DNA from: a virus
IMG/VR virus record: IMGVR_UViG_3300033153_016016
Coordinates: 1 to 31,080 of that record
DNA: 31,080 nucleotides
Strand: one strand, 5' to 3'
Part shown: positions 1,273 to 28,894 of the stretch, piece after piece
How positions within the stretch are numbered: the first letter of the stretch is position 1
Layout: each line of letters begins with the position of its first letter
The notes under the pieces: model-generated
Databases searched by the model: none
The model's input: the letters and a program-made list of their open reading frames with translations, nothing else
Told to the model about the DNA's origin: nothing
Position numbers and translations under genes: made by a program

Positions 1273-1340
1273 GATTCTGATGAATCTCAATGAACGCTTG
1301 TAGCAATAACCGTTCTCAACGGTCGCTTGTGCAATAGCTG
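1273..1340. promoter_or_regulatory. Regulatory gap with GAACGC/GCAATA element, copy 1, and hairpins
   Basis: The 140-base gap at 1202-1341 holds no gene. At 1290-1318 there is ATGAACGCTTGT followed by A and GCAATAACCG and TTCTCA. The same arrangement returns at 1596-1624 and, more loosely, at 2540-2567. A second partial copy (CGCTTGT then GCAATAGCTG) lies at 1324-1340. Overlapping inverted repeats are GATTC/GAATC (1273-1286) and ACCGTT/AACGGT (1309-1323, 3-base loop). The gap precedes the leftward gene starting at 1201. No clear TATA box is seen, so an operator or processing element is as likely as a promoter. Confidence 0.5.
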
Positions 1341-1595: not shown

Positions 1596-1624
1596 ATGAA
1601 CGCTTGTGCAATAGCCGGTTCTCA
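1596..1624. promoter_or_regulatory. GAACGC/GCAATA element, copy 2
   Basis: ATGAACGCTTGT is followed directly by GCAATAGCCGG and TTCTCA, matching the copy at 1290-1318 apart from a shifted single base and one substitution. GAACGC and GGTTC form an imperfect dyad around the GCAATAGC core. It sits about 24 bases upstream of the ATG of the leftward gene starting at 1572, a place where an operator would act. Confidence 0.5.
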
Positions 1625-2517: not shown

Positions 2518-2567
2518 AGTGCGTTCTCGACGCTGTCTCGAACGCACTATGCAGTAACTGCGTTCTC
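2518..2567. promoter_or_regulatory. 9-bp inverted repeat plus GAACGC/GCARTA element, copy 3
   Basis: AGTGCGTTC (2518-2526) and GAACGCACT (2540-2548) form a perfect 9-bp inverted repeat in the leader of the gene starting at 2462. GAACGC of its right arm also starts a third, looser copy of the regional element: GAACGC, ACTAT, GCAGTAACTG, then CGTTCTC (2540-2567). The right part overlaps the last codons of the gene at 2547-2774. The dyad layout suggests a protein binding site or transcript hairpin. Confidence 0.5.
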
Positions 2568-3534: not shown

Positions 3535-3627
3535 GCCCAGCTTTGGGGTACCCGTGCTGGGCGACGGGCGAACATAAACCTCTGTTAGCGGAGGTTTGAG
3601 AGTAAGTAGCCAGGGTTTCCCCTGGCT
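3535..3627. ncRNA. Three tandem hairpins in an intergenic gap
   Basis: The 125-base gap between the leftward genes ending at 3638 and starting at 3512 has three perfect inverted repeats in a row: GCCCAGC/GCTGGGC (3535-3562), AAACCTC/GAGGTTT (3576-3597, 8-base loop) and AGCCAGGG/CCCTGGCT (3608-3627, 4-base loop). The first arm spans a GGGGTACCC near-palindrome in its loop. No T run follows, so this is not a usual archaeal terminator. A structured leader, processing site or small RNA are the options. Confidence 0.4.
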
Positions 3628-3637
3628 TGGGCTCCTC

Positions 3638-4021
3638 CTAGAGGATGCCCACGATTTTGGCGCTCCTGAACTCTGGCGCCTTTGTTTCTCCTTCCGCGTC
3701 TGTCTTGCCAGGGCGCTTGTACCACTCGATGACATCCTTCAGTTGTGTCCTTCTTGGCGTTCTCCCCTCATCATTGTAGTGCTGAGTCCAGTTCAGCATC
3801 TGGGGGCAGTCCACGACGATGCCCTTCTTGACCAGCAACTCGGCGCTGCAGAAAGACAGCTCAAGGTCGACGATGTATATGGTCTCGTCATCCTCTGCTG
3901 GGTACATGGCTACCGGAAGCGCAGGCAATGCTGCTACCGGGGCAGGCTCTGGTGGGTTCGTTGAACCGTCCGATTCAACGGACTCGGGGACGGGAGTTCC
4001 GTCCGGCTCGTTTTCGCTCAT
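3638..4021 (-). CDS. Acidic W-T-Q / EWYKRPGK family protein, paralogue 2 (127 aa)
   Basis: Paralogue of the 105-residue protein at 2145-2462, sharing MYPA-x-DD, V-D-L-E-L-S-F, C-P-Q-M-L-N-W-T-Q, L-K-D-V-I-E-W-Y-K-R-P-G-K and P-E-F-R-S-A. It carries an extra N-terminal Pro/Ala/Glu-rich linker of about 35 residues (PESVESDGSTNPPEPAPVAAL), probably disordered. No Shine-Dalgarno is visible before the ATG at 4021, unlike the paralogue, so leaderless or coupled translation is possible. Two diverged copies 1.2 kb apart in one early block suggest duplication followed by specialisation. Function unknown. Confidence 0.65.
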   Translation of the reverse strand: MSENEPDGTPVPESVESDGSTNPPEPAPVAALPALPVAMYPAEDDETIYIVDLELSFCSAELLVKKGIVVDCPQMLNWTQHYNDEGRTPRRTQLKDVIEWYKRPGKTDAEGETKAPEFRSAKIVGIL

Positions 4022-4060: not shown

Positions 4061-4372
4061 TCATCGACTCACGGTGTTGCAAAGGAAACATGTTAGGTGC
4101 TGGACGCGGTTGCGGTCACTGAACTCGGCGCTCCAGTGCGACTTTGCATAGACGACCTCATTGTTGTGCTCGGTGATTTGGCCACAATGATTGCAGTAAT
4201 GCAGGGCGTTCATGGCCATGTCGGTTGGTACATTGAACGTTTCATCCATTCTGATTGGGTCGCCCTTTTCGTTTGTGAAGTTACTTCTCGGGGCGGCTGG
4301 TTCGTTGTACAGCGGGTCAACCTCAGTGACTGGGCGAAGTCTTGGTTCCCGGCCAGGGTATAGCGCGCTCAT
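4061..4372 (-). CDS. Zinc-ribbon protein (103 aa)
   Basis: ATG at 4372 (MSALYPGREPRLRP) is preceded by AAGGTGA and overlaps the stop of the small upstream gene in an ATGA junction; longer readings are therefore rejected. The second half holds C-N-H-C (about residues 60-63) and C-F-L-C (about 96-99), separated by a strand-rich stretch with several Asn, His and Trp. This is the layout of a treble-clef or zinc-ribbon domain. The N-terminal 50 residues are Pro-rich and likely flexible. Probably a small nucleic-acid or protein binder; no family recognised. Confidence 0.6.
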   Translation of the reverse strand: MSALYPGREPRLRPVTEVDPLYNEPAAPRSNFTNEKGDPIRMDETFNVPTDMAMNALHYCNHCGQITEHNNEVVYAKSHWSAEFSDRNRVQHLTCFLCNTVSR

Positions 4373-4494
4373 TGTTTCACCTTCTTTGCCCTCGCTGGCG
4401 AACTCAGAGCTTCGTGGAACATCACGATTGGGAACTTGAAACCACCGGACAGGGCCGCTTCCCATGGCGGGCAGAGCATCGGGAGGAGTCTCAT
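4369..4494 (-). CDS. Small hydrophobic/basic protein (41 aa)
   Basis: Its ATG overlaps the TGA of the upstream gene (4491-4793) and its TGA overlaps the ATG of the next gene (4061-4372), so it fits exactly between them through two ATGA couplings. It reads MRLLPMLCPPWEAALSGGF, continues with KFPIVMFHEALSSPARA and ends KKVKQ. There is no clear membrane helix or motif. The double coupling is the main evidence, as the composition alone would not convince. It may serve mainly to carry translating ribosomes to the zinc-ribbon gene. Confidence 0.45.
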   Translation of the reverse strand: MRLLPMLCPPWEAALSGGFKFPIVMFHEALSSPARAKKVKQ

Positions 4495-4793
4495 TCAATC
4501 AACCTCCGCAGCCATGCAAGGACGCCCTTTGGTTTCTTGAGACTTGCAAGCAGTTCCTCCTGGGCCCTGATAGCTCTGGGTGTGACTATGATGTCGGGAT
4601 GCTCCCATAGATACCGAGCGTAGTCGAGGTCATCCACGAACTTGTCCCCGTGGCCCCAGTGCTCGGCCAGCCAACAAGTGTCGCACTGTATCTTTGCACC
4701 CGGCTGGGGTTCAAGGTCGAGGAACCACATTGGGTCTTGGCAGTCACAGCATTCCGTTGCGGGCTCTGTTGTTACGCACTCGTTCGATGTCAT
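4491..4793 (-). CDS. Zinc-ribbon protein, first gene of the leftward block (100 aa)
   Basis: N-terminal third holds E-C-C-D-C-Q-D (residues 14-18) and I-Q-C-D-T-C-W (about 36-40), a four-Cys zinc ribbon, followed by W-G-H-G-D-K-F-V-D-D. The C-terminal part is helical and basic (PRAIRAQEELLASLKKPKGVLAWLRRL). A DNA- or RNA-binding regulator is a fair guess, but no family is recognised. No Shine-Dalgarno precedes the ATG; instead an 8-bp inverted repeat (4785-4812) overlaps the start codon. It is the first recognisable gene leftward from the 5 kb control region. Confidence 0.65.
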   Translation of the reverse strand: MTSNECVTTEPATECCDCQDPMWFLDLEPQPGAKIQCDTCWLAEHWGHGDKFVDDLDYARYLWEHPDIIVTPRAIRAQEELLASLKKPKGVLAWLRRLIE

Positions 4794-4812
4794 CGCTCGC
4801 GATGTGACATCG
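4785..4812. promoter_or_regulatory. Inverted repeat over the start of the first leftward gene
   Basis: CGATGTCA (4785-4792) and TGACATCG (4805-4812) form a perfect 8-bp inverted repeat with a 12-base centre that includes the ATG complement (4791-4793). It could be an operator for autoregulation or a hairpin that hides the start codon in the transcript. No Shine-Dalgarno is present to compete with it. Confidence 0.45.
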
Positions 4813-5176
4813 ATAAGAGTGTAGCACGCCGTAGCGTGCGCATGTGTTCAGGACGACCTAATGCTATTGTGTGGCACGCGTTTCCAATTCGATGTAGCTT
4901 ATAGGAGCGGAGCGAGTGCTCTTTGCAGGAGGGCGCCGAGTAGGCGCATTGTGTAGGAGCACGAAGTGGATGCGAACAATTATGTAGCATTTCGAGGACG
5001 CAGTGTAGGGCAGCATGCCGAGCCGCAGTGAGGATGGCTGCCGCATTGGTGGCCGAGGGAAGGATAAGATGATTGCGACGCAGCGCTACGATGCCCTGCC
5101 GCAGCAGGGTTGATGGAGCGCAAGGCGGTGAGGAGAGAAAGGATAAACTAATAGGTGAGGCCGCTAGGCCGAGCAT
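4813..5176. repeat. Field of short inverted repeats and AGCG/GTAG motifs
   Basis: A GC-richer stretch without a credible gene. It holds closely spaced short stems: GCACG/CGTGC (4826-4841), GAGC/GCTC (about 4905-4922), GCGCC/GGCGC (4934-4948), GGCAGC/GCTGCC (about 5010-5042), CCCTGC/GCAGGG (5094-5109) and GGCC/GGCC (5159-5170). Motifs such as GGAGCGGAGCGAG, GTGTAG and GAGGATAAG recur at 20-40 base intervals, and a relative, GAGCGAAGCGAGGATAAG, stands alone at 5639-5656. This resembles a degenerate repeat family or a structured leader of the leftward transcript. A 134-codon open frame on the minus strand here has non-protein-like composition. Confidence 0.45.
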
Positions 5177-5299
5177 GGACAGATTAAAAAACACTTTCTC
5201 TTCTCACGTCAATCATCTTAGTTGGACAGGCATATATAGATACTAACCCCAAAACACGTTTTCGAGACATTTTCAGTTTTGGGTTTAGCATATACTTGT

Positions 5300-5343
5300 C
5301 AGTAGCTGAGCAATAGCCGGGCAGTAGCTAAGCAGTAACTGAT
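5300..5343 (+). repeat. Four tandem 11-bp iterons
   Basis: Four consecutive 11-mers: CAGTAGCTGAG, CAATAGCCGGG, CAGTAGCTAAG, CAGTAACTGAT. The consensus is CARTARCYRRG. A period of 11 bp places each unit on the same DNA face, as expected for cooperative binding of an initiator or repressor. The middle 22 bases recur almost exactly at 5534-5555. Confidence 0.7.
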
Positions 5344-5376
5344 CACCACCCTAATGTCCAACGAAAGGGCTCTCAA

Positions 5377-5392
5377 GGGGCGCGAACGCCCC
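5377..5392. other. GC-rich hairpin
   Basis: GGGGCG and CGCCCC form a perfect 6-bp stem closed by CGAA. It stands 34 bases after the tandem iterons, in an otherwise gene-free region. Confidence 0.5.
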
Positions 5393-5483
5393 CCGTCAAT
5401 AAGTTATTGCACCTTGTTAATGCCGCGCTGTACCACGGTGCACTAACTTTGGCCATGCCCCTATTATACCGTTACTCACATAT

Positions 5484-5515
5484 GTACTTTGGGGGTGTGA
5501 TCACCCCAAAAGTAC
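5484..5515. other. Strong 14-bp hairpin with TGAT loop
   Basis: GTACTTTGGGGGTG (5484-5497) pairs with CACCCCAAAAGTAC (5502-5515) with a single G-T wobble and a 4-base loop. It is the most stable simple stem in the window. It lies between the first and second iteron clusters and may be a cruciform of an origin, a bidirectional terminator, or a transcript structure. Confidence 0.6.
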
Positions 5516-5534
5516 TTTACAAACGCCTCAAATG

Positions 5535-5556
5535 CAATAGCCGGGCAGTAGCTGAC
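5535..5556 (+). repeat. Second iteron cluster (two tandem 11-mers)
   Basis: CAATAGCCGGG and CAGTAGCTGAC in tandem, preceded by G as in the first cluster; 21 of 22 bases match 5310-5331. Confidence 0.65.
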
Positions 5557-5585
5557 CATCAAAAACGAATCGCCAACCCGGGCAA

Positions 5586-5719
5586 CAGTAGCCGCAGTTA
5601 TTGCACTACGGTGCGCTAACTAGCTACTAGACTTGCCCGAGCGAAGCGAGGATAAGGTAATGTACAGTTACTGGTGATCGGATATTGCAACAGTTACTGT
5701 TACTTAATGCAATAACTGC
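5586..5719. repeat. Third iteron cluster, mostly inverted copies
   Basis: CAGTAGCCG (5586-5594) is followed by GCAGTTATTGC (5594-5604), CAGTTACTG (5665-5673), CAGTTACTG within AACAGTTACTGTT (5689-5701) and GCAATAACTGC (5709-5719). GCAGTTATTGC and GCAATAACTGC are perfect 11-bp inverted copies of each other. The two CAGTTACTG copies are 26 bases apart. This cluster leads into the rightward TATA promoter. Confidence 0.6.
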
Positions 5720-5730
5720 GCGCCCGCGTT

Positions 5731-5805
5731 CGAAGTGGGCTACTTCGCAGAAAAGTATAAATAAGAGGAACGATATAGTCTATTTAGCACAAGTACTAAA
5801 TAGAC
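5731..5805 (+). promoter_or_regulatory. Rightward TATA promoter with two flanking dyads
   Basis: AAAAG followed by TATAAATA (5756-5763) is a strong archaeal-type TATA box with a purine-rich BRE-like flank; no bacterial -35 is seen. A perfect dyad CGAAGT/ACTTCG (5731-5747) lies just upstream. A perfect 10-bp dyad GTCTATTTAG/CTAAATAGAC (5778-5805, 8-base loop) covers the expected start of transcription. This arrangement suits an operator that blocks initiation or a hairpin at the 5-prime end of the transcript. GAGGAACGA (5765-5773) between TATA and dyad recurs at two other sites. Confidence 0.65.
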
Positions 5806-5822
5806 ATTTTGGAGGGTTTGAA

Positions 5823-6377
5823 ATGAATGAAGTAACATTAGTAGTTGGCCGCGATAGCGGCCCAGATGGAGAAGCAGTGCCCGGATACTATGCCATGATC
5901 GCGAACGGCGATAGCGTTTTTGCGGGTGCAACAGTTGAAGAGGCCATAAGTGACCTGTTTGGATCACTCTACCCGGCAGTGACACGTCATACTGGACGCC
6001 TTAAGAAGAACTGGCCGCCATCATCCATCGAAGATGGAAGTATTATGAATTTTTATCACCCAAGATGGGACGAGTTCGTGGAGCGACTAGATGGTCCGGA
6101 GGGATGTAACTTTCGAAAGGATGACGACGGAGAGATACACTGGGACTGCACGGCAAAGAAAGATCGAGGCCACGCCATAAAAATAATGAAAGACATGGGC
6201 GTAAAGGACATCGAGGGATCATTACTGTTCTTCAACGAGAATGGTGGCTTTTGCGACTGCGAGATTTTGTTCAATGTAAATGTTCCAGCTAAGAGGGAGG
6301 CCGCGGAGCGACCGACACTCGTCGAAGAGGCTAGTTCAAAGTCGGACGGCGCTGGATCAGAAGGTAAACTAAACTAA
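5823..6377 (+). CDS. DUF2695-like protein (184 aa)
   Basis: First rightward gene. ATG 5823 follows GGAGG by 7 bases. Residues 1-60 (M-N-E-V-T-L-V-V-G-R..., Y-Y-A-M-I-A-N-G-D-S-V-F-A-G-A-T-V-E-E-A-I) resemble a HicB-like beta-alpha module. Residues 75-160 resemble the DUF2695 type seen in archaea and bacteria: L-D-G-P-E-G-C-N-F-R, I-H-W-D-C, A-I-K-I-M-K-D-M-G, and G-G-F-C-D-C-E-I-L-F-N-V. The conserved Cys residues could bind metal. The last 25 residues are a Ser/Glu-rich tail. The biochemical role is not known. Expression is directly under the promoter and dyad at 5756-5805, so it may be a very early protein. Confidence 0.7.
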   Translation: MNEVTLVVGRDSGPDGEAVPGYYAMIANGDSVFAGATVEEAISDLFGSLYPAVTRHTGRLKKNWPPSSIEDGSIMNFYHPRWDEFVERLDGPEGCNFRKDDDGEIHWDCTAKKDRGHAIKIMKDMGVKDIEGSLLFFNENGGFCDCEILFNVNVPAKREAAERPTLVEEASSKSDGAGSEGKLN

Positions 6378-8197: not shown

Positions 8198-8697
8198 TCG
8201 AAGTGGCCCTCGGGGCGGCACTATTTGGACTTGCAATATACACTATCTGGTCACATAGGCGGAACACGGTTAATGTGCAGTTACTGTCAGATAATGCACG
8301 GCTACTGGCGGATAATGCACAGCTACTGGAAGAGTACAGGCAACTCTTTAATGCTTCGCAGCTAGAAGTGCGCAGAATGATTGGTGAGAGGGGCGAAGAA
8401 GAAAAGAAAATTCGAGCCGACGCTGCCAAAAGATCGAGGTCATCGATCAAAGGCAAAGTCGGTGAAACTTGGGCACCCTTCCTACACGACTTCCCATATA
8501 ATAGCGAGGACTGTCATTTTCTGGGACAGCCAGTCGATTATCTAATTTTTGATTGGGGGCCCGAAAAGGAACTGAAGCAGATTGTATTGCTTGAGATCAA
8601 GACTGGGACCGCAACGTTGAGTACACGTCAGAGGCGCGTTAGAGACGCCATCAAGGATGGTAAGGTGATATGGGATGAGTACAGAATTGATGGGTAG
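8194..8697 (+). CDS. Membrane-anchored nuclease related to archaeal Holliday junction resolvases (COG4741-like, 167 aa)
   Basis: Residues 3-20 form one membrane helix, 28-80 a coiled-coil, and 84-162 a PD-(D/E)xK nuclease domain. The nuclease part reads G-K-V-G-E-T-W-A-P-F, F-P-Y-N-S-E-D, G-Q-P-V-D-Y-L-I-F-D, V-L-L-E-I-K-T-G, and L-S-T-R-Q-R-R-V-R-D-A-I. Likely catalytic residues are E91, D115, E134 and K136. This matches the group described as predicted endonucleases distantly related to archaeal Holliday junction resolvases. It would cut DNA, probably branched, at the membrane. It is coupled by ATGA to the VanZ-like gene. The coiled-coil codons contain three CAGYTACTG-like sites at 21-base spacing. 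Confidence 0.8.
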   Translation: MIEVALGAALFGLAIYTIWSHRRNTVNVQLLSDNARLLADNAQLLEEYRQLFNASQLEVRRMIGERGEEEKKIRADAAKRSRSSIKGKVGETWAPFLHDFPYNSEDCHFLGQPVDYLIFDWGPEKELKQIVLLEIKTGTATLSTRQRRVRDAIKDGKVIWDEYRIDG

Positions 8698-10148: not shown

Positions 10149-10532
10149 ATGGTAGATAGTGCTCAGGAGGCGGATGGGGATACCCCCATCCTGTCTTCCA
10201 TTTGCCCAAGGTGTGCTAACGCCTGTATAACGTGCAGTCGCTGCGAGCTCCCGTTAGACGATATGCGAGACATGGAAACAACTCTGGCGCCGAACAATAT
10301 AATTATTGACTGTAATAAGTTTATCATGAGGGGAATCAATGAAGAAGAAACTAACAGTAACGATGTCGGTGAAGGAATTCATTTCACTGAACGAAGGGTT
10401 CTTTCAGATGGATTGCGAGGAAATGTCGTTGAATGGGAAGAAGATGAAGAAAACGGACAAATTTACATTAGAATTCAACTCGACAGAAAAACTGCAGAAG
10501 GAAACTGTGCCGGAAAAGAGGACAAAGACTAA
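10149..10532 (+). CDS. Cys-rich protein with long overlap into the next frame (127 aa)
   Basis: ATG 10149 follows GGGAGG by 6 bases. The N-terminal third contains C-P-R-C, C-I-T-C, and C-E-L in close order (residues 19-33), a zinc-ribbon-like cluster. The C-terminal part (G-N-V-V-E-W-E-E-D-E-E-N-G-Q-I-Y-I-R-I-Q-L-D-R) reads as an acidic beta hairpin. From 10339 to 10532 it shares DNA with another gene in a different frame, also protein-like. Both cannot be constrained fully, so one C-terminus may be recent or spurious. AT-rich ATAAATATATAT lies 10 bases before the ribosome binding site. Confidence 0.55.
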   Translation: MVDSAQEADGDTPILSSICPRCANACITCSRCELPLDDMRDMETTLAPNNIIIDCNKFIMRGINEEETNSNDVGEGIHFTERRVLSDGLRGNVVEWEEDEENGQIYIRIQLDRKTAEGNCAGKEDKD

Positions 10533-10575
10533 AAAGGTCGACGACGGTGCGAATGCAGAAGGCATGTTTGCGTGA
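10339..10575 (+). CDS. Basic protein overlapping the Cys-rich gene (78 aa)
   Basis: ATG 10339 has GAGGGG at good spacing. The protein begins MKKKLTVTMSVKEFISLNEG and is Lys-rich, with a C-terminal block (PEKRTKTKKVDDG). It uses a different frame from the Cys-rich gene for 194 bases. The strong ribosome binding site and natural composition support it. No family recognised; charge suggests nucleic-acid binding. Confidence 0.55.
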   Translation: MKKKLTVTMSVKEFISLNEGFFQMDCEEMSLNGKKMKKTDKFTLEFNSTEKLQKETVPEKRTKTKKVDDGANAEGMFA

Positions 10576-10579
10576 TAAA

Positions 10580-10708
10580 ATGGTAATATGTGATCGATGT
10601 GGTGCTTATTTACATTATAAGGTAGGGAGCAATAATGTGCCGTTCAGAGAGTGTCCTCAATGTGGGAAGAAGTTCTGTTATCCAGAAGACGGTGATCCAA
10701 AATGTTGA
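10580..10708 (+). CDS. Zinc-ribbon mini-protein (42 aa)
   Basis: Reads MVICDRCGAYLHYKVGSNN, then F-R-E-C-P-Q-C-G-K-K-F-C-Y-P. C-D-R-C-G at residues 4-8 and C-P-Q-C-G at about 25-29 make a compact zinc ribbon with an extra Cys. It starts 4 bases after the previous stop and overlaps the next gene by 7 bases. Very similar in style to the mini-ribbons of the leftward block, but not an obvious paralogue. Function unknown. Confidence 0.65.
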   Translation: MVICDRCGAYLHYKVGSNNVPFRECPQCGKKFCYPEDGDPKC

Positions 10709-10986
10709 AATCAATGTCTTCGGACGATTTGGCTAAAGCCATCGAGAGGGCCGAGGTGCTGACGACTTTCATACAGAGCGTAGACTGGGGCGCAGTCCGT
10801 CAGGTTATTGTGGAGTGGGCGGACGACGCCGAAGAAATAGAACCGGAGACGTTCGGTCAACGAGAGGTAAAAAAGAAGAAACCGACGAAGGAAATTATGT
10901 CTATTCATATTGTATGTGAACCGGGAACATTGCCAGTACCGAGAAAAGCTGACGGGTCACCCGATGGTGAGGGAGTTTTCTTATGA
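10702..10986 (+). CDS. Small acidic/helical protein (94 aa)
   Basis: ATG 10702 follows GGTGA by 6 bases and overlaps the zinc ribbon. The N-terminal half is helical (SSDDLAKAIERAEVLTTFIQ, then W-G-A-V-R-Q-V-I-V-E-W-A-D-D-A-E-E). A Lys block (VKKKKPTKE) and a strand-rich tail (I-M-S-I-H-I-V-C-E-P-G) follow. No family recognised. It is coupled by ATGA to the following gene just before the terminase. Confidence 0.55.
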   Translation: MLKSMSSDDLAKAIERAEVLTTFIQSVDWGAVRQVIVEWADDAEEIEPETFGQREVKKKKPTKEIMSIHIVCEPGTLPVPRKADGSPDGEGVFL

Positions 10987-11363
10987 GAGAGTTCCTTTCT
11001 TACGACGAGATCTATGGGATGTTGAAAGGAGACATGGGTGACGCCCTCGACGAGAAACGCTTTGCTATCAGTGCCCTATCGGCACGCATATACGAAGAGC
11101 TCGTGCTGTGGAAAAGGCTAAATAAACTGTTGGAGGGGCTGAATAAACATCCGCTCGAACCAGAAGAATGGGACGAATATGGCATCCTTTCAAAGAAATC
11201 CGAATCTCTTACGCAGCTGATAGTGAGATCTGTGAAAGAGTTAGGGATTGAAAATAAGAAGTCCGTAAAGGAGCTTATAAATACACTCGACGAACGGATG
11301 CTTGGTGGTACGAATGACGATGAGACAAAGAGGACAAATGGAACAGCATCTGATAACTCTTGA
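10983..11363 (+). CDS. Helical protein, possible terminase small-subunit candidate (126 aa)
   Basis: GAGGGAG precedes the ATG and an ATGA junction joins it to the previous gene. The protein is nearly all helical and charged, with E-E-L-V-L-W-K-R-L-N-K-L-L-E-G-L and E-E-W-D-E-Y-G-I-L-S-K-K-S-E-S-L-T-Q-L in the middle and a Thr/Asn-rich tail. Helical proteins of 100-180 residues shortly before the terminase large subunit are often small terminase subunits, which bind the packaging site. No sequence motif proves that here, and no winged-helix or HTH segment is obvious. The position is the main support. Confidence 0.45.
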   Translation: MREFLSYDEIYGMLKGDMGDALDEKRFAISALSARIYEELVLWKRLNKLLEGLNKHPLEPEEWDEYGILSKKSESLTQLIVRSVKELGIENKKSVKELINTLDERMLGGTNDDETKRTNGTASDNS

Positions 11364-11448: not shown

Positions 11449-11797
11449 ATCAGATAAGAAAGACGATTTGCCAGATATAGAGGACTTCTTAGAGGCAGAC
11501 TCACAGTCGATCAATGGAGTTATCTCGGCGATAGCTTCTGCGCTCAAAGATAACAACTTTTGTAACTGCCATATACAACTGGGAGAAATCTCAGTCAACG
11601 CTTCGAGAAAGGAAAAGAATAGTTTGATAATGAATCTTGGGACGTTTAGAATTGAGATGTCGGACCCTGATACCACACTGAACGAAAAAGTTAAGAAAGT
11701 GATGTACATATTACGGACTATAAACAAACTTGGGTTTAGGCCGGATAAAATGGTTACCGAGTCACAACACCCCGTGCCAGAGGAGTTATATCAATAA
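11441..11797 (+). CDS. Protein of unknown function before the terminase (118 aa)
   Basis: ATG 11441 follows GAGG by 9-10 bases; a longer reading from 11360 has poorer sequence. The N-terminus is acidic (MSESDKKDDLPDIEDFLEAD), followed by a helix (INGVISAIASALKDNNF), C-N-C-H, and strands (IQLGEISVN, NLGTFRIEMS), then a C-terminal helix (NEKVKKVMYILRTINKLGF). No family recognised. A TAATG junction couples it to the terminase gene, so a packaging role is possible. Confidence 0.6.
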   Translation: MSESDKKDDLPDIEDFLEADSQSINGVISAIASALKDNNFCNCHIQLGEISVNASRKEKNSLIMNLGTFRIEMSDPDTTLNEKVKKVMYILRTINKLGFRPDKMVTESQHPVPEELYQ

Positions 11798-13377
11798 TGG
11801 TCGAAGAGAACAAACTCATAAAACTCAGGGAGCAGTTCGACGCAGTTCGCGGGGATCGAATTGCCCTGGAGAGGCTGATCAAGAAATTTTGTGAGACTTT
11901 TTTGATCGACAACAAGAGACGCCCACTTAGGCTGCGCCCCATGCAGATACAGATTGTAGCAGAATGTCTTACTAACCGATATTTGATGCTTTTGGCTCCA
12001 AGAGGTTCTGGAAAGTCAAAGGCGCTCAGTGTAGCTATAACAATGTGGATGTATTACTATCGCAGCGGCGAAAAGATTGCGATCGTGGCCCCACAGATGA
12101 AGCAGTGCAAAATTATATTTGGCGACGTTGTAGAGAATTTTATAGAATCGCCCGTGCTGTCAAAAATAGGTATTATCCATAATGTGAGGCACGAAAACGA
12201 CCCAATTTTGAAATTGGACGGTGGGTCGGTAGCTCAGCCACTTCCAGCAGAAACAAAGCGGGAAGGTCAGAGCATCCGTGGGTTTCACGCTACATTTTGT
12301 GTAGTGGATGAGAGCCCCATGATACCAGACAATCTTTTTGAATCTAATATAGAACCAATTGTGTTAGCGGAAGAAGCGCCATTTATTAACATAGGCACCC
12401 CAAAAACGAAGGATAACCACGCTTATCGATATCTATTTGACAAACGCTACGACCACTTTACAAGAAAAACGTTCACATATATAGAGGCCATGATAAAGGG
12501 CGACGCATATAAGACTCCGTATACCAAAAAGGACATTGAGATAAAGAAGAAGACGTGGGGCGAGGACAGTATTAAGTTTAGAACTGAATATCTTTGTGAA
12601 TTTATTGAACACACTGGGCAATTTTTTACAAGTGATGATTTTTCCAGGTCAGTATATAAGCTCGACTATTTCATTCGTGACCCAAAGAATATTAATGGTG
12701 ACACATTCGTAACAGTTGATTTGGCCCAGTCCCACAATTCAATAGTGTATGCGCTGTGGGAAGCGGGCGAAAAGTACGGGAAGGATATACTCTTCTTACG
12801 AGACTTACACGAAATAAAACCACCATCGAGTGGTATAGACCCAAAGCTAGTTAGGACTACGCTCTTAGACTATTGTCGGTTTTTCAACTGTCGTGCAATA
12901 ATTCTCGATTCAACCGGCGCTGGGAAGACTATGTTCGGCGACTTCAAACGCGAGGCGATGGAAGCGGGCCTTATGTTAAAGGTGATTCCGTTTTATTTTA
13001 GTATCAACAAAGCGGAACAATATGCGATGTACAAACATAAGCTAAGAGGCGGCTACATTATGCTTCCAAAAACACAAGCGCTGAAGAAAGCGTTCGAAAG
13101 GAAGATTATGAGTAAGTGTATGGAACAACACTTCACAATATCGTATGGTTTTGCAAAGGATCTAAAGAATGTGCTCATCAGAGCGCAGCAACACAGACAC
13201 GACGATTTTCCTGATTGCTTGTGCATGGCGCCTTTGTTAATGGGCAAAGTCAAACACAATCCAATAGTCCTTGGTGTAACAAGAGATAAGGCCCCACGTC
13301 ATGCGGTCAGGGCGTATGATTTTAGGGCTCTCGACGAGGAATTTGATAAAAGAAAATATGGCGAGGGGATAGGATGA
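11797..13377 (+). CDS. terL: Terminase large subunit (526 aa)
   Basis: The packaging motor ATPase and nuclease, which pumps DNA into the prohead and cuts concatemers. Walker A is A-P-R-G-S-G-K-S (residues 67-74), Walker B is C-V-V-D-E-S with D171/E172, and the coupling motif is I-N-I-G-T-P-K-T near 197-204. The RNase H-like nuclease domain shows D308 (T-V-D-L-A-Q-S), D371 (I-I-L-D-S-T-G-A-G) and the acidic cluster H-D-D-F-P-D around 468-473. Length is normal for the family. The ATG is joined to the previous gene by TAATG. The next gene starts in an ATGA overlap. All expected active-site residues are present, so the enzyme should be active. Confidence 0.93.
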   Translation: MVEENKLIKLREQFDAVRGDRIALERLIKKFCETFLIDNKRRPLRLRPMQIQIVAECLTNRYLMLLAPRGSGKSKALSVAITMWMYYYRSGEKIAIVAPQMKQCKIIFGDVVENFIESPVLSKIGIIHNVRHENDPILKLDGGSVAQPLPAETKREGQSIRGFHATFCVVDESPMIPDNLFESNIEPIVLAEEAPFINIGTPKTKDNHAYRYLFDKRYDHFTRKTFTYIEAMIKGDAYKTPYTKKDIEIKKKTWGEDSIKFRTEYLCEFIEHTGQFFTSDDFSRSVYKLDYFIRDPKNINGDTFVTVDLAQSHNSIVYALWEAGEKYGKDILFLRDLHEIKPPSSGIDPKLVRTTLLDYCRFFNCRAIILDSTGAGKTMFGDFKREAMEAGLMLKVIPFYFSINKAEQYAMYKHKLRGGYIMLPKTQALKKAFERKIMSKCMEQHFTISYGFAKDLKNVLIRAQQHRHDDFPDCLCMAPLLMGKVKHNPIVLGVTRDKAPRHAVRAYDFRALDEEFDKRKYGEGIG

Positions 13378-13688
13378 TTTCAATAGACACGAAAATCAAA
13401 CTGGCGATAGCGTCAACGAAGATGATTGGTAGAATGGTTCCGCTAGACGCTTTAGCCGAACATTTGCGCGACTCGTTTGGCGTCGAATTGTCTGATAGAC
13501 AGATCGCGGCTATATTTTCTCAATGGCGAAAGATGAAATTTAAGATCGAAAAGAAGCGGCACACTCACACAGAAGGCGGTTGTAATCGTGTGCGCTCACT
13601 TTATAGAACTGATGCGAAAACTATAAAAAGGTTGTTAGACCTTCTATATAGAAGACAATATATTTTCGACAAATCGTCTTTGAGGTAG
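13374..13688 (+). CDS. Small basic, probable helix-turn-helix protein (104 aa)
   Basis: ATGA overlap with terL and GAGGGGATAGG upstream. Residues 10-55 contain helices with the pattern V-P-L-D-A-L-A-E-H-L-R-D-S-F-G-V-E-L-S-D-R-Q-I-A-A-I-F, which looks like an HTH (helix, turn after F-G-V, second helix R-Q-I-A-A-I). The remainder is very basic (KMKFKIEKKRHTH, RVRSLYRTDAKTIKRLLDLL). Most likely a DNA-binding protein of the packaging module, possibly a displaced terminase small subunit, but this is inference from composition and position between terL and portal. Confidence 0.5.
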   Translation: MISIDTKIKLAIASTKMIGRMVPLDALAEHLRDSFGVELSDRQIAAIFSQWRKMKFKIEKKRHTHTEGGCNRVRSLYRTDAKTIKRLLDLLYRRQYIFDKSSLR

Positions 13689-13693
13689 TTTCC

Positions 13694-14929
13694 ATGGCTG
13701 AACACGAGAGAAAGACCCCCAAGGGCCGGATGAAGGGTTTCCAGACAGTCTATGATTTCAAAAAAGGACAGCCGCACATAGGTGACTTTACGTTTTATCG
13801 TAAGACCTATTTAACCGATCCGGTAGTTCAGACAAATATCAACATCCCGTGTAGATACATTTGGAAGAGCGGGTGGTATATACAAGGAACACATAAAAAG
13901 GCTGTGGCAGCTGTTCGTGAATATCTCGACAAGGTCGGGATCGACCACAAGGGTTATATTTTTGCTAAGGATTCTAAGATTTTTGGAACTGGGTACATGG
14001 AGTACACTAGTGAGGACTTATATATCAGAAATCCTGATACCATGTTTGTAAGGGTGGACAGCAAGGGGAGAATCAGAGGCTGGGAGCAGCGGACTCCGAG
14101 TAGGCTTGAACCCATCAAGTTCAGGAAGGAAGAGATCATATATATGGCTAACAATCCATTCTCTGACTCTGTATATGGCGTTTCGGACATAGAGGCGGTC
14201 CGGTATGTTGTGCGTTATCTCAAGGATCAAGCAGAGAGAGATGTTGGAGCCATGCTCAATAAGTATGTTGGTACGAAGTTCCTTATTAAGGGAGGGGCCA
14301 TGGATAATCCGTTTCAGGCGCCCGAGCTAGAGGAGCTGCGCGATTATTTTTCTGAGCTCAAGTTTCCGGAAGATATAATAACTGCTGGAGACGTGGACGT
14401 TAGTCTGTTAAACAGTCCTGGTCAAGGCATGGACTTTCGTGCATATCTCGATTACATCATCATGATTCTATCGATTGGTATGAACGTCCCGATCGTTTTT
14501 TGGGAAGGCAAGAGCTCAACGAACGCCACTGCAACCGTGCAATTGAAAGTGTTCGAGTCCTATGTCAAGTTCTTGCAAACTCAGATTGAAGACGCATTCA
14601 ATACACAGCTAATACCAAATATCATTCAAGATAAGATTGGCGACTCTGTCAAACGGGTGGACTATCCGAAATTTGTATTTAGGCCAGTTAACGTAGACGA
14701 GCTGTTTGTACAGGCCAAGACAGATTTGATATATCTGCAAAACGCGGTGCGCGACTCTTCAGAAGTTCGCGACGAGCGCGGCTTTGCTGAGAGGACTGAT
14801 CTACCAGCAGCGCCACGGAAAGTCGTCCCCTCTAATATTTCTGGTCAGACGGGCAAACCCGACCTTGCAAAAGAGATTGGGAAGCAGACTGGACAAAGCG
14901 ACATCGCATCCAAAGAGGTGAACAAATGA
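13694..14929 (+). CDS. Portal protein (411 aa)
   Basis: Forms the dodecameric ring at one capsid vertex through which DNA passes. Position directly before the prohead protease and capsid genes, length about 400 residues, and sequence (V-V-Q-T-N-I-N-I-P-C-R-Y-I-W-K-S-G-W, F-G-T-G-Y-M-E, N-P-F-S-D-S-V-Y-G-V-S-D-I-E-A, and the helical R-Y-V-V-R-Y-L-K-D-Q-A-E region) fit the HK97/SPP1-type portal family. A helix around M-I-L-S-I-G-M-N-V-P-I-V-F-W-E (residues 255-269) followed by K-S-S-T-N-A-T-A is also typical. The C-terminal tail is Lys/Gln-rich and likely disordered. GAGG stands about 8 bases upstream of the ATG. Confidence 0.85.
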   Translation: MAEHERKTPKGRMKGFQTVYDFKKGQPHIGDFTFYRKTYLTDPVVQTNINIPCRYIWKSGWYIQGTHKKAVAAVREYLDKVGIDHKGYIFAKDSKIFGTGYMEYTSEDLYIRNPDTMFVRVDSKGRIRGWEQRTPSRLEPIKFRKEEIIYMANNPFSDSVYGVSDIEAVRYVVRYLKDQAERDVGAMLNKYVGTKFLIKGGAMDNPFQAPELEELRDYFSELKFPEDIITAGDVDVSLLNSPGQGMDFRAYLDYIIMILSIGMNVPIVFWEGKSSTNATATVQLKVFESYVKFLQTQIEDAFNTQLIPNIIQDKIGDSVKRVDYPKFVFRPVNVDELFVQAKTDLIYLQNAVRDSSEVRDERGFAERTDLPAAPRKVVPSNISGQTGKPDLAKEIGKQTGQSDIASKEVNK

Positions 14930-17107: not shown

Positions 17108-18043
17108 ATGGTAGGAGTTATAGGAATGAAATCAACCGCTGATCTCGACTTAGAAGCACTCTGGGAAGAGATGAAGCGGATGACTTTGGAATCGGTCAAA
17201 GATCCGGACTTCACGTTCAAAAAGGTGTTTGTCAGGCCAGTTAGCTCACTGAAGGTTAAGGTGCCAAAGGAGTCTTACCTCTATCCACAAGAGATCGAGG
17301 ATGGGGCCACACCCGACTATCAGAAGCTTATTGGCGACTACATGCACTTCGATCTAGACCTCAAAGAATACGTGATCGCAACTGGTATTACTAGGAACAC
17401 CATCGAGGACTCCGACGAGACCGAGATAAGGTGGCACGCTGCGAGGGCTCTCAGGGCTATGAAGGACAATCAGGAAAGGAAGATCGTCGAGGTCATCGAC
17501 AACACTTGGTTGGACTCATTGGCTGGCACAGATCCAAGGTTCCCGCCAACTTATGGCGCGAACGTTATGGCTGATCCACATACCCACATCACTACAATTG
17601 GTGGAGCAATATCGCTTGCAACCATCGACGCTGCAATCGCTCACATAGACGAGCATGGCCACACCACGAACTGGATTTTGTGCAATCCTATGAGTAGGGA
17701 GAACCTCCTGAACCTCATGGTTGACGTAGCCGGTTATGGTGCTACCAGTACCGCTAACCACGAGAGGGAGTCGTATTTCGACAAGGCCGGCATGGAGCAG
17801 GGAAAACACGCCGTTGGAAGGATCAGGGGACTGAGCATACTAACTAACCCATGGGTAACCAGGGGCTATTATTATCTGTTCGATTCCAAGATCAAGCCCG
17901 TTGCGTGGTATGAGAAGAGGACGATCACTGCAGAACAGGACCCACGTGCCGGATTCGGTATCGTTGGTACATGGTATTCCAACAGGTTTGCCGTGGCCCT
18001 TGTCTACGCGACCGCGATCTATAAGCTCATAGCCACTGGCTAA
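17108..18043 (+). CDS. Major capsid protein, HK97 fold (311 aa)
   Basis: Builds the icosahedral shell. Strong AAGGAGGG ribosome binding site, the right position, and length near 310. The sequence fits the HK97-fold family: N-terminal helix (LDLEALWEEMKRMTLESVK), E-loop region with R-P-V-S-S-L-K-V-K-V-P-K-E, spine helix with D-S-D-E-T-E-I-R-W-H-A-A-R-A-L-R-A-M-K-D-N-Q-E, P-domain N-W-I-L-C-N-P, G-L-S-I-L-T-N-P-W and a final strand region with W-Y-S-N-R-F-A-V-A-L-V. No long N-terminal delta domain is present, in agreement with a separate scaffold. A hairpin terminator follows immediately, allowing high expression. Confidence 0.88.
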   Translation: MVGVIGMKSTADLDLEALWEEMKRMTLESVKDPDFTFKKVFVRPVSSLKVKVPKESYLYPQEIEDGATPDYQKLIGDYMHFDLDLKEYVIATGITRNTIEDSDETEIRWHAARALRAMKDNQERKIVEVIDNTWLDSLAGTDPRFPPTYGANVMADPHTHITTIGGAISLATIDAAIAHIDEHGHTTNWILCNPMSRENLLNLMVDVAGYGATSTANHERESYFDKAGMEQGKHAVGRIRGLSILTNPWVTRGYYYLFDSKIKPVAWYEKRTITAEQDPRAGFGIVGTWYSNRFAVALVYATAIYKLIATG

Positions 18044-26741: not shown

Positions 26742-27341
26742 ATGAACAAGGTAATGCCCCAACTCATACGGGCTTTTTCTTCTGAAGGACTCGGGGCGGC
26801 CGAGAAGTTCGTGTGGCGTATTATTGGTGAGCCAACTCAAAGTGAGCTTGGGAGTCCATCGGTCTCTGGAGAAACCGTCGACACGATAGTCGAGGGAATT
26901 TTTGGTACAAGCACGATTGACGACAGTTATATTCAGACTCAAACTAGCGGGCTCATGTCATCAGGCAAGAAGATTGTCCACCTTAGACCCGATATTTCGC
27001 TCTATCACGGCCAGAGGACGCTTCTCGCTGGAGATCTCTTTTATCGCTATGCTGAGGATACCCTGAGCATTATCGTTGAAGGAGCGGAAACTAAGGCCTA
27101 TATCAGGCCAGAGGCGATCGAGATCGTCATGACAATGACATACGACAATGTTACGCGGTTACTTACAGACAGTGACTATACCTATGATGCAGTAGCCGGT
27201 ACAGTAGCCTTTATAGTGTCAATCCCAGTTAATGCGGCTATTGCATGCAGCTACTATTACGATAAATATATTATAGAGGACGTCAACAACTATGGAAAGG
27301 TTTATATAGAAGTAATCCTCAATAAGATATCGGAGACCTAG
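26742..27341 (+). CDS. Neck/head-closure protein (199 aa)
   Basis: The ATG at 26742 follows a G-rich site (GGGGGG at about 26724-26729); a TTG at 26730 overlapping the previous stop is possible. N-terminal helix (MNKVMPQLIRAFSSEGLGAA) precedes a beta-rich body: Y-I-Q-T-Q-T-S-G, K-K-I-V-H-L-R-P-D, R-T-L-L-A-G-D-L-F-Y-R-Y-A, D-T-L-S-I-I-V-E-G-A-E-T-K-A-Y, Y-T-Y-D-A-V-A-G-T-V-A-F. Order (adaptor, this, tail terminator) and size suit a stopper or head-closure protein. No signature motif. The gene ends with C-terminal I-E-V-I-L-N-K-I. Confidence 0.5.
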   Translation: MNKVMPQLIRAFSSEGLGAAEKFVWRIIGEPTQSELGSPSVSGETVDTIVEGIFGTSTIDDSYIQTQTSGLMSSGKKIVHLRPDISLYHGQRTLLAGDLFYRYAEDTLSIIVEGAETKAYIRPEAIEIVMTMTYDNVTRLLTDSDYTYDAVAGTVAFIVSIPVNAAIACSYYYDKYIIEDVNNYGKVYIEVILNKISET

Positions 27342-27521
27342 ATGAACGAGCAGGAGTTTCAGGATTTGGTCGCGCAGGGCAAGACGGCCCTTGGGCTAAC
27401 GTGGGAAGTTATAGCCCTGAAGCTCGAGGAAGTTGAGGGGCAGGGCTGGCGTCTTTCTTTCTATGAAGTGATAGATGGTGAGCCGCGGTTCGAAGTCGAG
27501 GAGGTTTGGGAATCATGGTAG
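27342..27521 (+). CDS. Small protein between neck and tail-terminator genes (59 aa)
   Basis: Reads MNEQEFQDLVAQGKTALGLT, W-E-V-I-A-L-K-L-E-E-V, W-R-L-S-F-Y-E-V-I-D, and ends E-E-V-W-E-S-W. GGAG stands 6-7 bases before the ATG. Alternating helix and strands suggest a compact alpha/beta fold. The C-terminal codons provide the GGAGG of the next gene, and the stop lies inside it. No family recognised; probably a minor neck or chaperone protein. Confidence 0.6.
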   Translation: MNEQEFQDLVAQGKTALGLTWEVIALKLEEVEGQGWRLSFYEVIDGEPRFEVEEVWESW

Positions 27522-28894
27522 ACGTGATATCAACAAAGGCCGACTTCGATGCTGGAACATATACTGACACAATGTCGGAAGAGGTGCCTGGAGTTATACC
27601 TCCCGACTGCTTGAGTTTGTTAATGGAACACGTTCTCTATTTTTCTGCGGATAATACAAGCTTGGGCCAGTTTGCCGTTGGGAACGTAGGTGGGAACTTT
27701 TTTGAATCCGGGCAATCATTTATTGTAGCGTCGCCAATGACAATTAGCAAAATCGAAATGTTTTTTACAAATTTCGGTGGGGGTGGCTCTGGCACTCCAG
27801 TTTTATATGCAACAATAGTCGCAGATGTCGCCGGCAATCCTGACACGGTTGTCATTGTAGAAAGCAATCACTTTTCGTTTACTATAAGCGAGGGCTATCA
27901 AACGTTTAATTTTTCGTCTATAGAATTGCCCCCAGGCACGTATTGGTTCGTTCTTCAATGTGAACCAGGGACGCCTCTCGACAATTATAGACTTCTAAGA
28001 ACTGCACAACCGTCGTCATACCCTTATGGTCATGCTGCGTCTAAAGGTGGCTCGGGCATTTGGACTCATTATTCGAACCACGACGTCATAATGAACGCAT
28101 ACAGATGGGGGATTGCAACTTCTGGCAGTTGGAGGAGCGACGAGCGCGACACACCCGCCGTATCAAAAATTGCAAACTTTGTCTTTGATATAAACGCTGG
28201 ATCGGGCGACGCCAATAACTACATCAGTGGGATTGATATCATCCGAGCCGAGGACATGTCAGTCGTTGGAACCTATTCGACAGCAATTCAAGATGACGTC
28301 ACGCTCACACTGACAGATTTTGGGATTACAGAGATTCTAAATTTTGATTGGTACTTTGACGTGAGCATGGTTGGCGATTCGACTACGAGCATTCAGCTCA
28401 ATTCAATAACAACTAACTTCGTGTCGATGAGTCTCTATAACGCTGTATTGCTCGATTTAAAACGAGCCATTGTGGCCGAGTTTACGGACTTCAAGGTTGA
28501 GATTGCGGGCACCAGCGAGAAAAAGCGCGACGCAAATCAGCCGTATATTTACGTCGTGCCACTAAACATATCGACAGCGTTCGATCCGATCGGGCGCGAG
28601 ACGGCCACAGGGCATGGGGAAGGCCAGATATGGAACTTTTCTCTTGCTGTAATAACGAGGAGAGGCATCTTCGTGGACGGGGAGAGCGAATCAGAAATGC
28701 TTCGCGAAGTCGGAGAGCGGGCTTACAAGTTCCTTCGGAACACGGAAGAGAACCTGGGCGACGTCTTTGATGAAACGATCGACTATCTCAGATATTTTTC
28801 TGTTGGTGGTTTAACGACGACTCTTTACAATCCTGAGACAGAAGAATTTAGAATTGATATTGATTTTCGCATCGAGTTCAATATAACGAGGTAA
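27515..28894 (+). CDS. Tail terminator with large N-terminal beta domains (459 aa)
   Basis: ATG 27515, overlapping the previous stop, is preceded by GGAGG. Residues 35-160 look like a choice-of-anchor-type beta sandwich (G-Q-S-F-I-V-A-S-P-M-T-I-S-K-I-E-M-F-F, T-P-V-L-Y-A-T-I-V, G-T-Y-W-F-V-L-Q-C-E). Residues 180-300 form another beta region. The last ~150 (Y-N-A-V-L-L-D-L-K-R-A-I-V-A-E-F, D-A-N-Q-P-Y-I-Y-V-V-P-L-N, E-M-L-R-E-V-G-E-R-A-Y-K-F-L-R) fit tail-completion/terminator proteins of siphoviruses and myoviruses. As with the adaptor, a virion beta domain has been added to a normally small protein of about 150 residues. Confidence 0.6.
   Translation: MVDVISTKADFDAGTYTDTMSEEVPGVIPPDCLSLLMEHVLYFSADNTSLGQFAVGNVGGNFFESGQSFIVASPMTISKIEMFFTNFGGGGSGTPVLYATIVADVAGNPDTVVIVESNHFSFTISEGYQTFNFSSIELPPGTYWFVLQCEPGTPLDNYRLLRTAQPSSYPYGHAASKGGSGIWTHYSNHDVIMNAYRWGIATSGSWRSDERDTPAVSKIANFVFDINAGSGDANNYISGIDIIRAEDMSVVGTYSTAIQDDVTLTLTDFGITEILNFDWYFDVSMVGDSTTSIQLNSITTNFVSMSLYNAVLLDLKRAIVAEFTDFKVEIAGTSEKKRDANQPYIYVVPLNISTAFDPIGRETATGHGEGQIWNFSLAVITRRGIFVDGESESEMLREVGERAYKFLRNTEENLGDVFDETIDYLRYFSVGGLTTTLYNPETEEFRIDIDFRIEFNITR

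Follow-up and report, generated by a model that had tools for sequence, protein, structure and literature searches.

The 31,080-nucleotide window analysed here, which is the whole of record IMGVR_UViG_3300033153_016016, carries between two divergent gene sets an array of short repeats with an 11-bp period, which share a 9-bp core that recurs elsewhere in the genome and in one related virus. On balance, we favour reading the array as a dispersed set of operators at which one DNA-binding regulator would bind cooperatively to control the divergent promoters; this protein and its fold, promoter use and the sign of regulation are inferred. A cooperative regulator is suggested because the core is near-palindromic and repeated at one helical turn, occurs in direct and inverted copies, contacts a putative promoter on the left, lies upstream of another on the right, and has extra copies in the gaps between leftward genes.

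The virus and its gene layout

The record is classed as linear and is therefore probably a fragment; stop codons at both termini (positions 1 and 31080) suggest that a longer contig was cut back to gene boundaries to give it. It encodes a tailed virus, with a large terminase at 11797, a portal at 13694 and a major head protein at 17108. The large terminase is flanked by an all-helical protein (10983–11363) and an HTH-like protein (13374–13688). An archaeal host is likely, not proven: among named viruses the terminase has its best match in the archaeal Halogranum tailed virus 1, and the TATA/BRE-like elements described below fit as well, as does a PF10107 protein whose description relates it to an archaeal Holliday junction resolvase. 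Consistent with the divergence of two transcription units given in the preliminary description, the first minus-strand gene starts at 4793 and the first plus-strand gene at 5823, leaving approximately 1 kb of noncoding DNA between the leftward and rightward gene sets, with the array inside it.

Sigma-70 promoters and terminators in the window were no more frequent than chance, and the DNA of the array region showed no similarity to named phages. Among the leftward genes, 2145–2462 and 3638–4021 are paralogues (61% identity), and a Cys/His-rich trio (302–553, 770–997 and 1342–1572) was judged by eye to be paralogous, pointing to repeated gene duplication.

Structure of the repeat array

The four abutting 11-mers first noticed at 5300–5343 are letter-exact, and TRF calls the array with a period of 11 and 3.5 copies (5300–5337). 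The second, 22-bp copy at 5534–5555 is identical to 5310–5331 at 21 of 22 bases, the inverted relatives at 5594–5720 were recovered as a pair of arms (5593–5621 and 5692–5720), and both hairpins (5377–5392 and 5484–5515) were found. The adjoining AT-rich DNA is present, but only moderately so, with 37% GC at 5170–5300 against approximately 50% in the array.

All array copies reduce to the core CARTARCYG, which is close to the palindrome CAGTWACTG. Positions 5300–5718 hold ten exact cores and two near copies, centred at 5303, 5314, 5325, 5336, 5406, 5538, 5549, 5589, 5600, 5670, 5696 and 5713. The 11-bp period is borne out by these centres as well as by TRF, neighbours being exactly 11 bp apart in 5 of the 11 gaps, one inverted pair among them. 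The positions CA.TA.C are invariant in all 20 strong sites of the window and the relative L007; as these sites were picked by similarity, their invariance is a description of the motif rather than a test of it. The array comprises the following elements.

5300–5343, plus strand: four abutting 11-bp repeats with cores at 5300, 5311, 5322 and 5333, the third of which, CAGTAGCTA, is a near match
5399–5411, minus strand: core copy CAATAACTT within the palindrome CAATAAGTTATTG, seen in the sequence (13.5 bits)
5535–5554, plus strand: second tandem pair with an 11-bp step, near-identical to 5311–5330
5586–5603, both strands: inverted core pair with centres 11 bp apart (5586–5594 plus, 5595–5603 minus)
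5665–5673, minus strand: core copy in the exact palindrome form, CAGTAACTG
5691–5718, both strands: the two cores nearest the rightward promoter (5691–5699 minus, 5710–5718 plus)

A 34-nt inverted near-repeat (82%) was also observed between 276–309, at the end of a left-arm gene gap, and 5395–5428 in the array region, with GTTATTGCACCTTGT in both.

Putative promoter elements beside the array

Putative promoter elements were read by eye from the sequence on both sides of the array.

5231–5238, minus strand: TATA-like TATATATG, a second possible leftward promoter
5289–5294, minus strand: TATA-like TATATG, a possible leftward promoter
5756–5763, plus strand: TATA box TATAAATA preceded by the BRE-like GAAAAG, a putative rightward promoter
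5778–5805, plus strand: hairpin with 13-bp arms, near the expected start of the rightward mRNA
5823–6377, plus strand: first rightward gene (MNEVTLVVGR...), with a weak DUF2695 match and an N-terminus conserved in L007

On the left, the tandem array begins 5 bp upstream of TATATG and covers the expected BRE. On the right, approximately 38 bp separate the end of the last core (5718) from the TATA box downstream of it, and GAAAAGTATAAATAAG on the plus strand (TATA box at 5756–5763) is predicted to be a good archaeal-type promoter. An inverted repeat, CCCAAAAC...GTTTTGGG, lies at 5246–5285 between the two leftward TATA-like elements and may be another operator.

Over-representation and dispersal of the core

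Exact matches to CARTARCYG number 21 in the window, compared with 1.26 ± 1.21 expected and a maximum of 5 in 100 dinucleotide shuffles. Only the 12 array sites were used to train a weight matrix, so that densities outside the array provide an independent test. At a threshold of at least 12 bits, the array holds 12 sites in 532 bp against 0.04 with column-permuted matrices, and the densest 430-bp stretch in 100 Markov genomes had two. The left arm contains 4 such sites (0.22 with column-permuted matrices) and the right arm 9 (1.41 with column-permuted matrices; 1.50 under synonymous-codon reshuffling), and unrelated genome loci gave 0.039 sites per kb with the same matrix and threshold.

Neither these copies in the two arms nor those in the relatives figure in the preliminary description. 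The left-arm cores start at 1304, 1332, 1609 and 2552. Three of the four lie in gaps, which make up 18% of the arm, the fourth adjoins a stop codon, and all four share one orientation relative to transcription. The right-arm cores are of mixed orientation (4 plus, 5 minus) and mostly inside genes. The following copies lie outside the array.

1304–1340, plus strand: two cores in an intergenic gap of the leftward set
1609–1617, plus strand: core copy in the gap upstream of the leftward gene starting at 1572
2552–2560, plus strand: core copy next to the stop codon that closes the leftward gene at 2547
8278–8328, minus strand: three core copies with 21-bp spacing in a coding repeat

The last three belong to a 21-bp tandem repeat (8271–8333) inside a nuclease gene; they share one helix face and may be a by-product of a heptad-coding repeat. 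Likewise, the cores at 27190 and 27235 overlie codons whose protein sequence is conserved in the related contig L010. The independent events in the right arm are hence fewer than nine.

Two further sequences were seen. In the left arm, the core has another motif, ACAAGCGTTCAYT, as its neighbour (1285–1301, 1591–1607 and 1948–1964). The 16-bp GTTCAYTNNANYGAAC, with one copy in the window and two in tandem in L007 (1846–1881), was considered as a second shared motif and judged too weak to claim.

Conservation in a related virus

The whole comparison rests on L007, the only relative found with the array region, whose terminase is approximately 64% identical to that of the window virus. Its gene order is the same, with leftward genes, a long noncoding stretch and then a syntenic rightward gene, the first 47 residues of which match the first rightward gene of the window with 36% identity. 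The noncoding stretch upstream of this gene contains three sites of at least 12 bits in 183 bp, against 0.02 expected, and none of 300 simulations reached three. Two of the three, joined by a weaker copy, make up a tandem at 2063–2096 in 11–12 bp steps. The left part of L007 has 3 sites (0.14 expected) and the rest of it 4 (0.84 expected); L010, which continues the contig of L009, has 4 (0.89 expected), all at the same threshold. Loss of the 11-mers with gene order kept, named in the preliminary description, together with the absence of a skew change, as what would refute an origin, was thus not seen, as L007 retains cores upstream of the syntenic gene.

L008 and L009 appear to be the same virus as L007 and are without the array region, as is the 6-kb relative L006, in which the related pattern GCARTARCY was absent. 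Queries with the terminase, portal, capsid, first gene and left arm returned only L006 and one other virus (L007–L009), and a provirus search in genomes found none. Matches from a scan of viral contigs and genomes for the tandem pattern were background-like, many of them from one Anaerolineales assembly, and were treated as unrelated. Short 11-bp tandem arrays of the GCAATAACTGN type, mostly intergenic, were seen in unrelated bacteria (L025, L036, L052, L088 and others); these surfaced because the search pattern selected for them.

Several other features of the two viruses were recorded. Long noncoding stretches that are GC-rich or hairpin-rich, with GAGCGNAGCGAG-like words, occur at 4794–5170 in the window and approximately 690–1750 in L007; they matched no Rfam family and their folding did not consistently surpass that of shuffles, and an Rfam search of the window and L007 as a whole gave no RNA family. 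GMFG, GMFA or GVFL, preceded by an acidic or charged tail, closes several small proteins (window 10339–10575 and 10702–10986; L007 6690–6917 and 7780–8190) and is perhaps part of a shared protein-binding tail. In L010, the counterpart of window gene 27506–28894 is present two or three times in a row (927–2309, 3541–3930 and 4363–5361).

A model for regulation at the divergent promoters

In the model that we favour, one sequence-specific DNA-binding protein, probably a small virus-encoded cooperative dimer, would bind CARTARCYG. Cores one helical turn (11 bp) apart would let dimers sit next to each other and coat the stretch that separates the divergent promoters. Where the array abuts the putative TATA/BRE on the left, bound protein could either block or recruit TBP/TFB. 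On the right, the last sites, approximately 38 bp upstream of the TATA box, are placed as might be expected for an archaeal activator or a spreading repressor. Single cores, in the leftward gene gaps or elsewhere, would act as secondary, weaker sites.

Cooperative binding to several operators is known from RHH regulators of archaeal viruses (PMC5569661). Among them, F55 of SSV1 (Fuselloviridae) binds two tandem 11-bp repeats, ATAGATAGAGT, at or next to early promoters, overlapping the BRE or the transcription start site (PMC5569661). The window resembles this system in being from a probably archaeal virus with several sites per genome and with tandem 11-bp repeats at or next to putative promoters, the array abutting the TATA-like element at 5289–5294. 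It differs in the larger array, the 9-bp near-palindromic core, the presence of inverted as well as direct copies, and the tailed virus that carries it. By analogy, the layout fits an array that works like the tandem 11-bp sites of F55. Membership of the F55 system is not claimed, because the F55 consensus ATAGATAGAGT was not above chance in the window and no F55/RHH homologue was found among the scanned window proteins. Searches of Pfam, PHROGs and NCBIfam for an RHH or HTH regulator near the array gave only weak zinc-ribbon matches and, adjacent to the terminase, an HTH-like one, and no RHH regulator was recognised among the scanned proteins of this incomplete fragment. Structure prediction for two conserved small proteins, at low to moderate confidence, gave no RHH or regulator fold, and the second of them had no PDB relative.

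Alternative functions for the array

The preliminary description proposed a candidate replication origin, in which an initiator would bind the repeats as iterons and melt the AT-rich DNA beside them. This ranks second, behind an operator array for a regulator, as a possible but rather doubtful reading. Of that proposal, the 11-bp-period array at the divergence is real and conserved with synteny in the relative. As in theta-plasmid iteron origins and Orc1/ORB archaeal origins, tandem direct repeats lie in noncoding DNA next to a moderately AT-rich stretch (37% GC at 5170–5300), here in a long divergent region that also has strong hairpins, and L007 is arranged in the same way, its AT-rich stretch being strongly so. 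Unlike those origins, the window offered no excess of Orc1 ORB boxes over chance (28.9 loose matches expected and 16 found, none of them in 5300–5822) and no recognised initiator gene among the scanned proteins of the 31-kb fragment, which is incomplete, so that an initiator may lie outside it. Nor did cumulative skew turn near 5.3 kb, as had been expected of an origin: the minima, at 3841 (GC), 4924 (AT) and 4798 (purine), track gene direction, the purine minimum falling where the first leftward gene starts. When third-position GC skew is taken along the coding strand, the left genes come out negative and the right genes positive, and therefore the plus strand keeps one sign through the region. 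The skew result weakens the origin proposal without excluding it, because skew is also affected by transcription and is of little use where replication is unidirectional. Moreover, the cores are dispersed, and their presence in gene gaps and elsewhere suits a regulator or a centromere better than the iterons of a single origin. If the array were an origin, it would be one of few mapped in tailed archaeal viruses.

The same dispersal recalls the stoperators of L5-type mycobacteriophages, at which a repressor on dispersed copies stops elongating RNA polymerase; such a role here is unlikely. As in cluster A phages, which have 20–30 stoperators per genome (PMC6550527), a short motif is over-represented across a tailed-virus genome and is also found at promoters, with approximately 21 exact cores in 31 kb, and the left-arm copies, in gaps in three of four cases, share a single orientation relative to transcription. 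Stoperators of the L5 type are mostly in one orientation (PMC6550527), whereas the mixed, largely intragenic right-arm copies are not; the core is near-palindromic rather than clearly asymmetric, and some of the dispersed copies may have a secondary cause (27190/27235 over protein-conserved codons and the coding repeat at 8278–8328). The L5-like phages also have a bacterial host and a known repressor, against a binding protein that is only postulated here. With a similarly low probability, one regulator on approximately 20 dispersed sites and the dense array at divergent early promoters might act on both initiation and elongation, as an archaeal counterpart of stoperator immunity. A partition centromere, at which a ParR-like protein would bind the array and segregate an extrachromosomal form of the virus, seems less probable still. 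ParR of plasmid R1 requires at least two 11-bp direct repeats (PMC9426499), and those of parC, near a promoter and bound in groups, are comparable to the array; the copies here are also inverted and dispersed, no parM or parR gene is seen among the neighbouring proteins, the scanned proteins gave no match to ParM, ParA, TubZ or ParR, and the fragment shows no plasmid-like sign of maintenance. Least credible is a packaging site (pac/cos) bound by a small terminase subunit. Other tailed phages have repeated sites for terminase binding, and the all-helical and HTH-like proteins that flank the large terminase count in its favour, but the array, on divergent promoters, is separated from the terminase genes by more than 5 kb, and its cores are dispersed.

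Significance

To our knowledge, few regulators and operator systems have been described in tailed archaeal viruses. An operator array of this kind, with a 9-bp core and a dozen clustered sites, could readily serve as bait for its protein, and finding that protein would tell whether tailed archaeal viruses have a switch of the lysis/lysogeny type.
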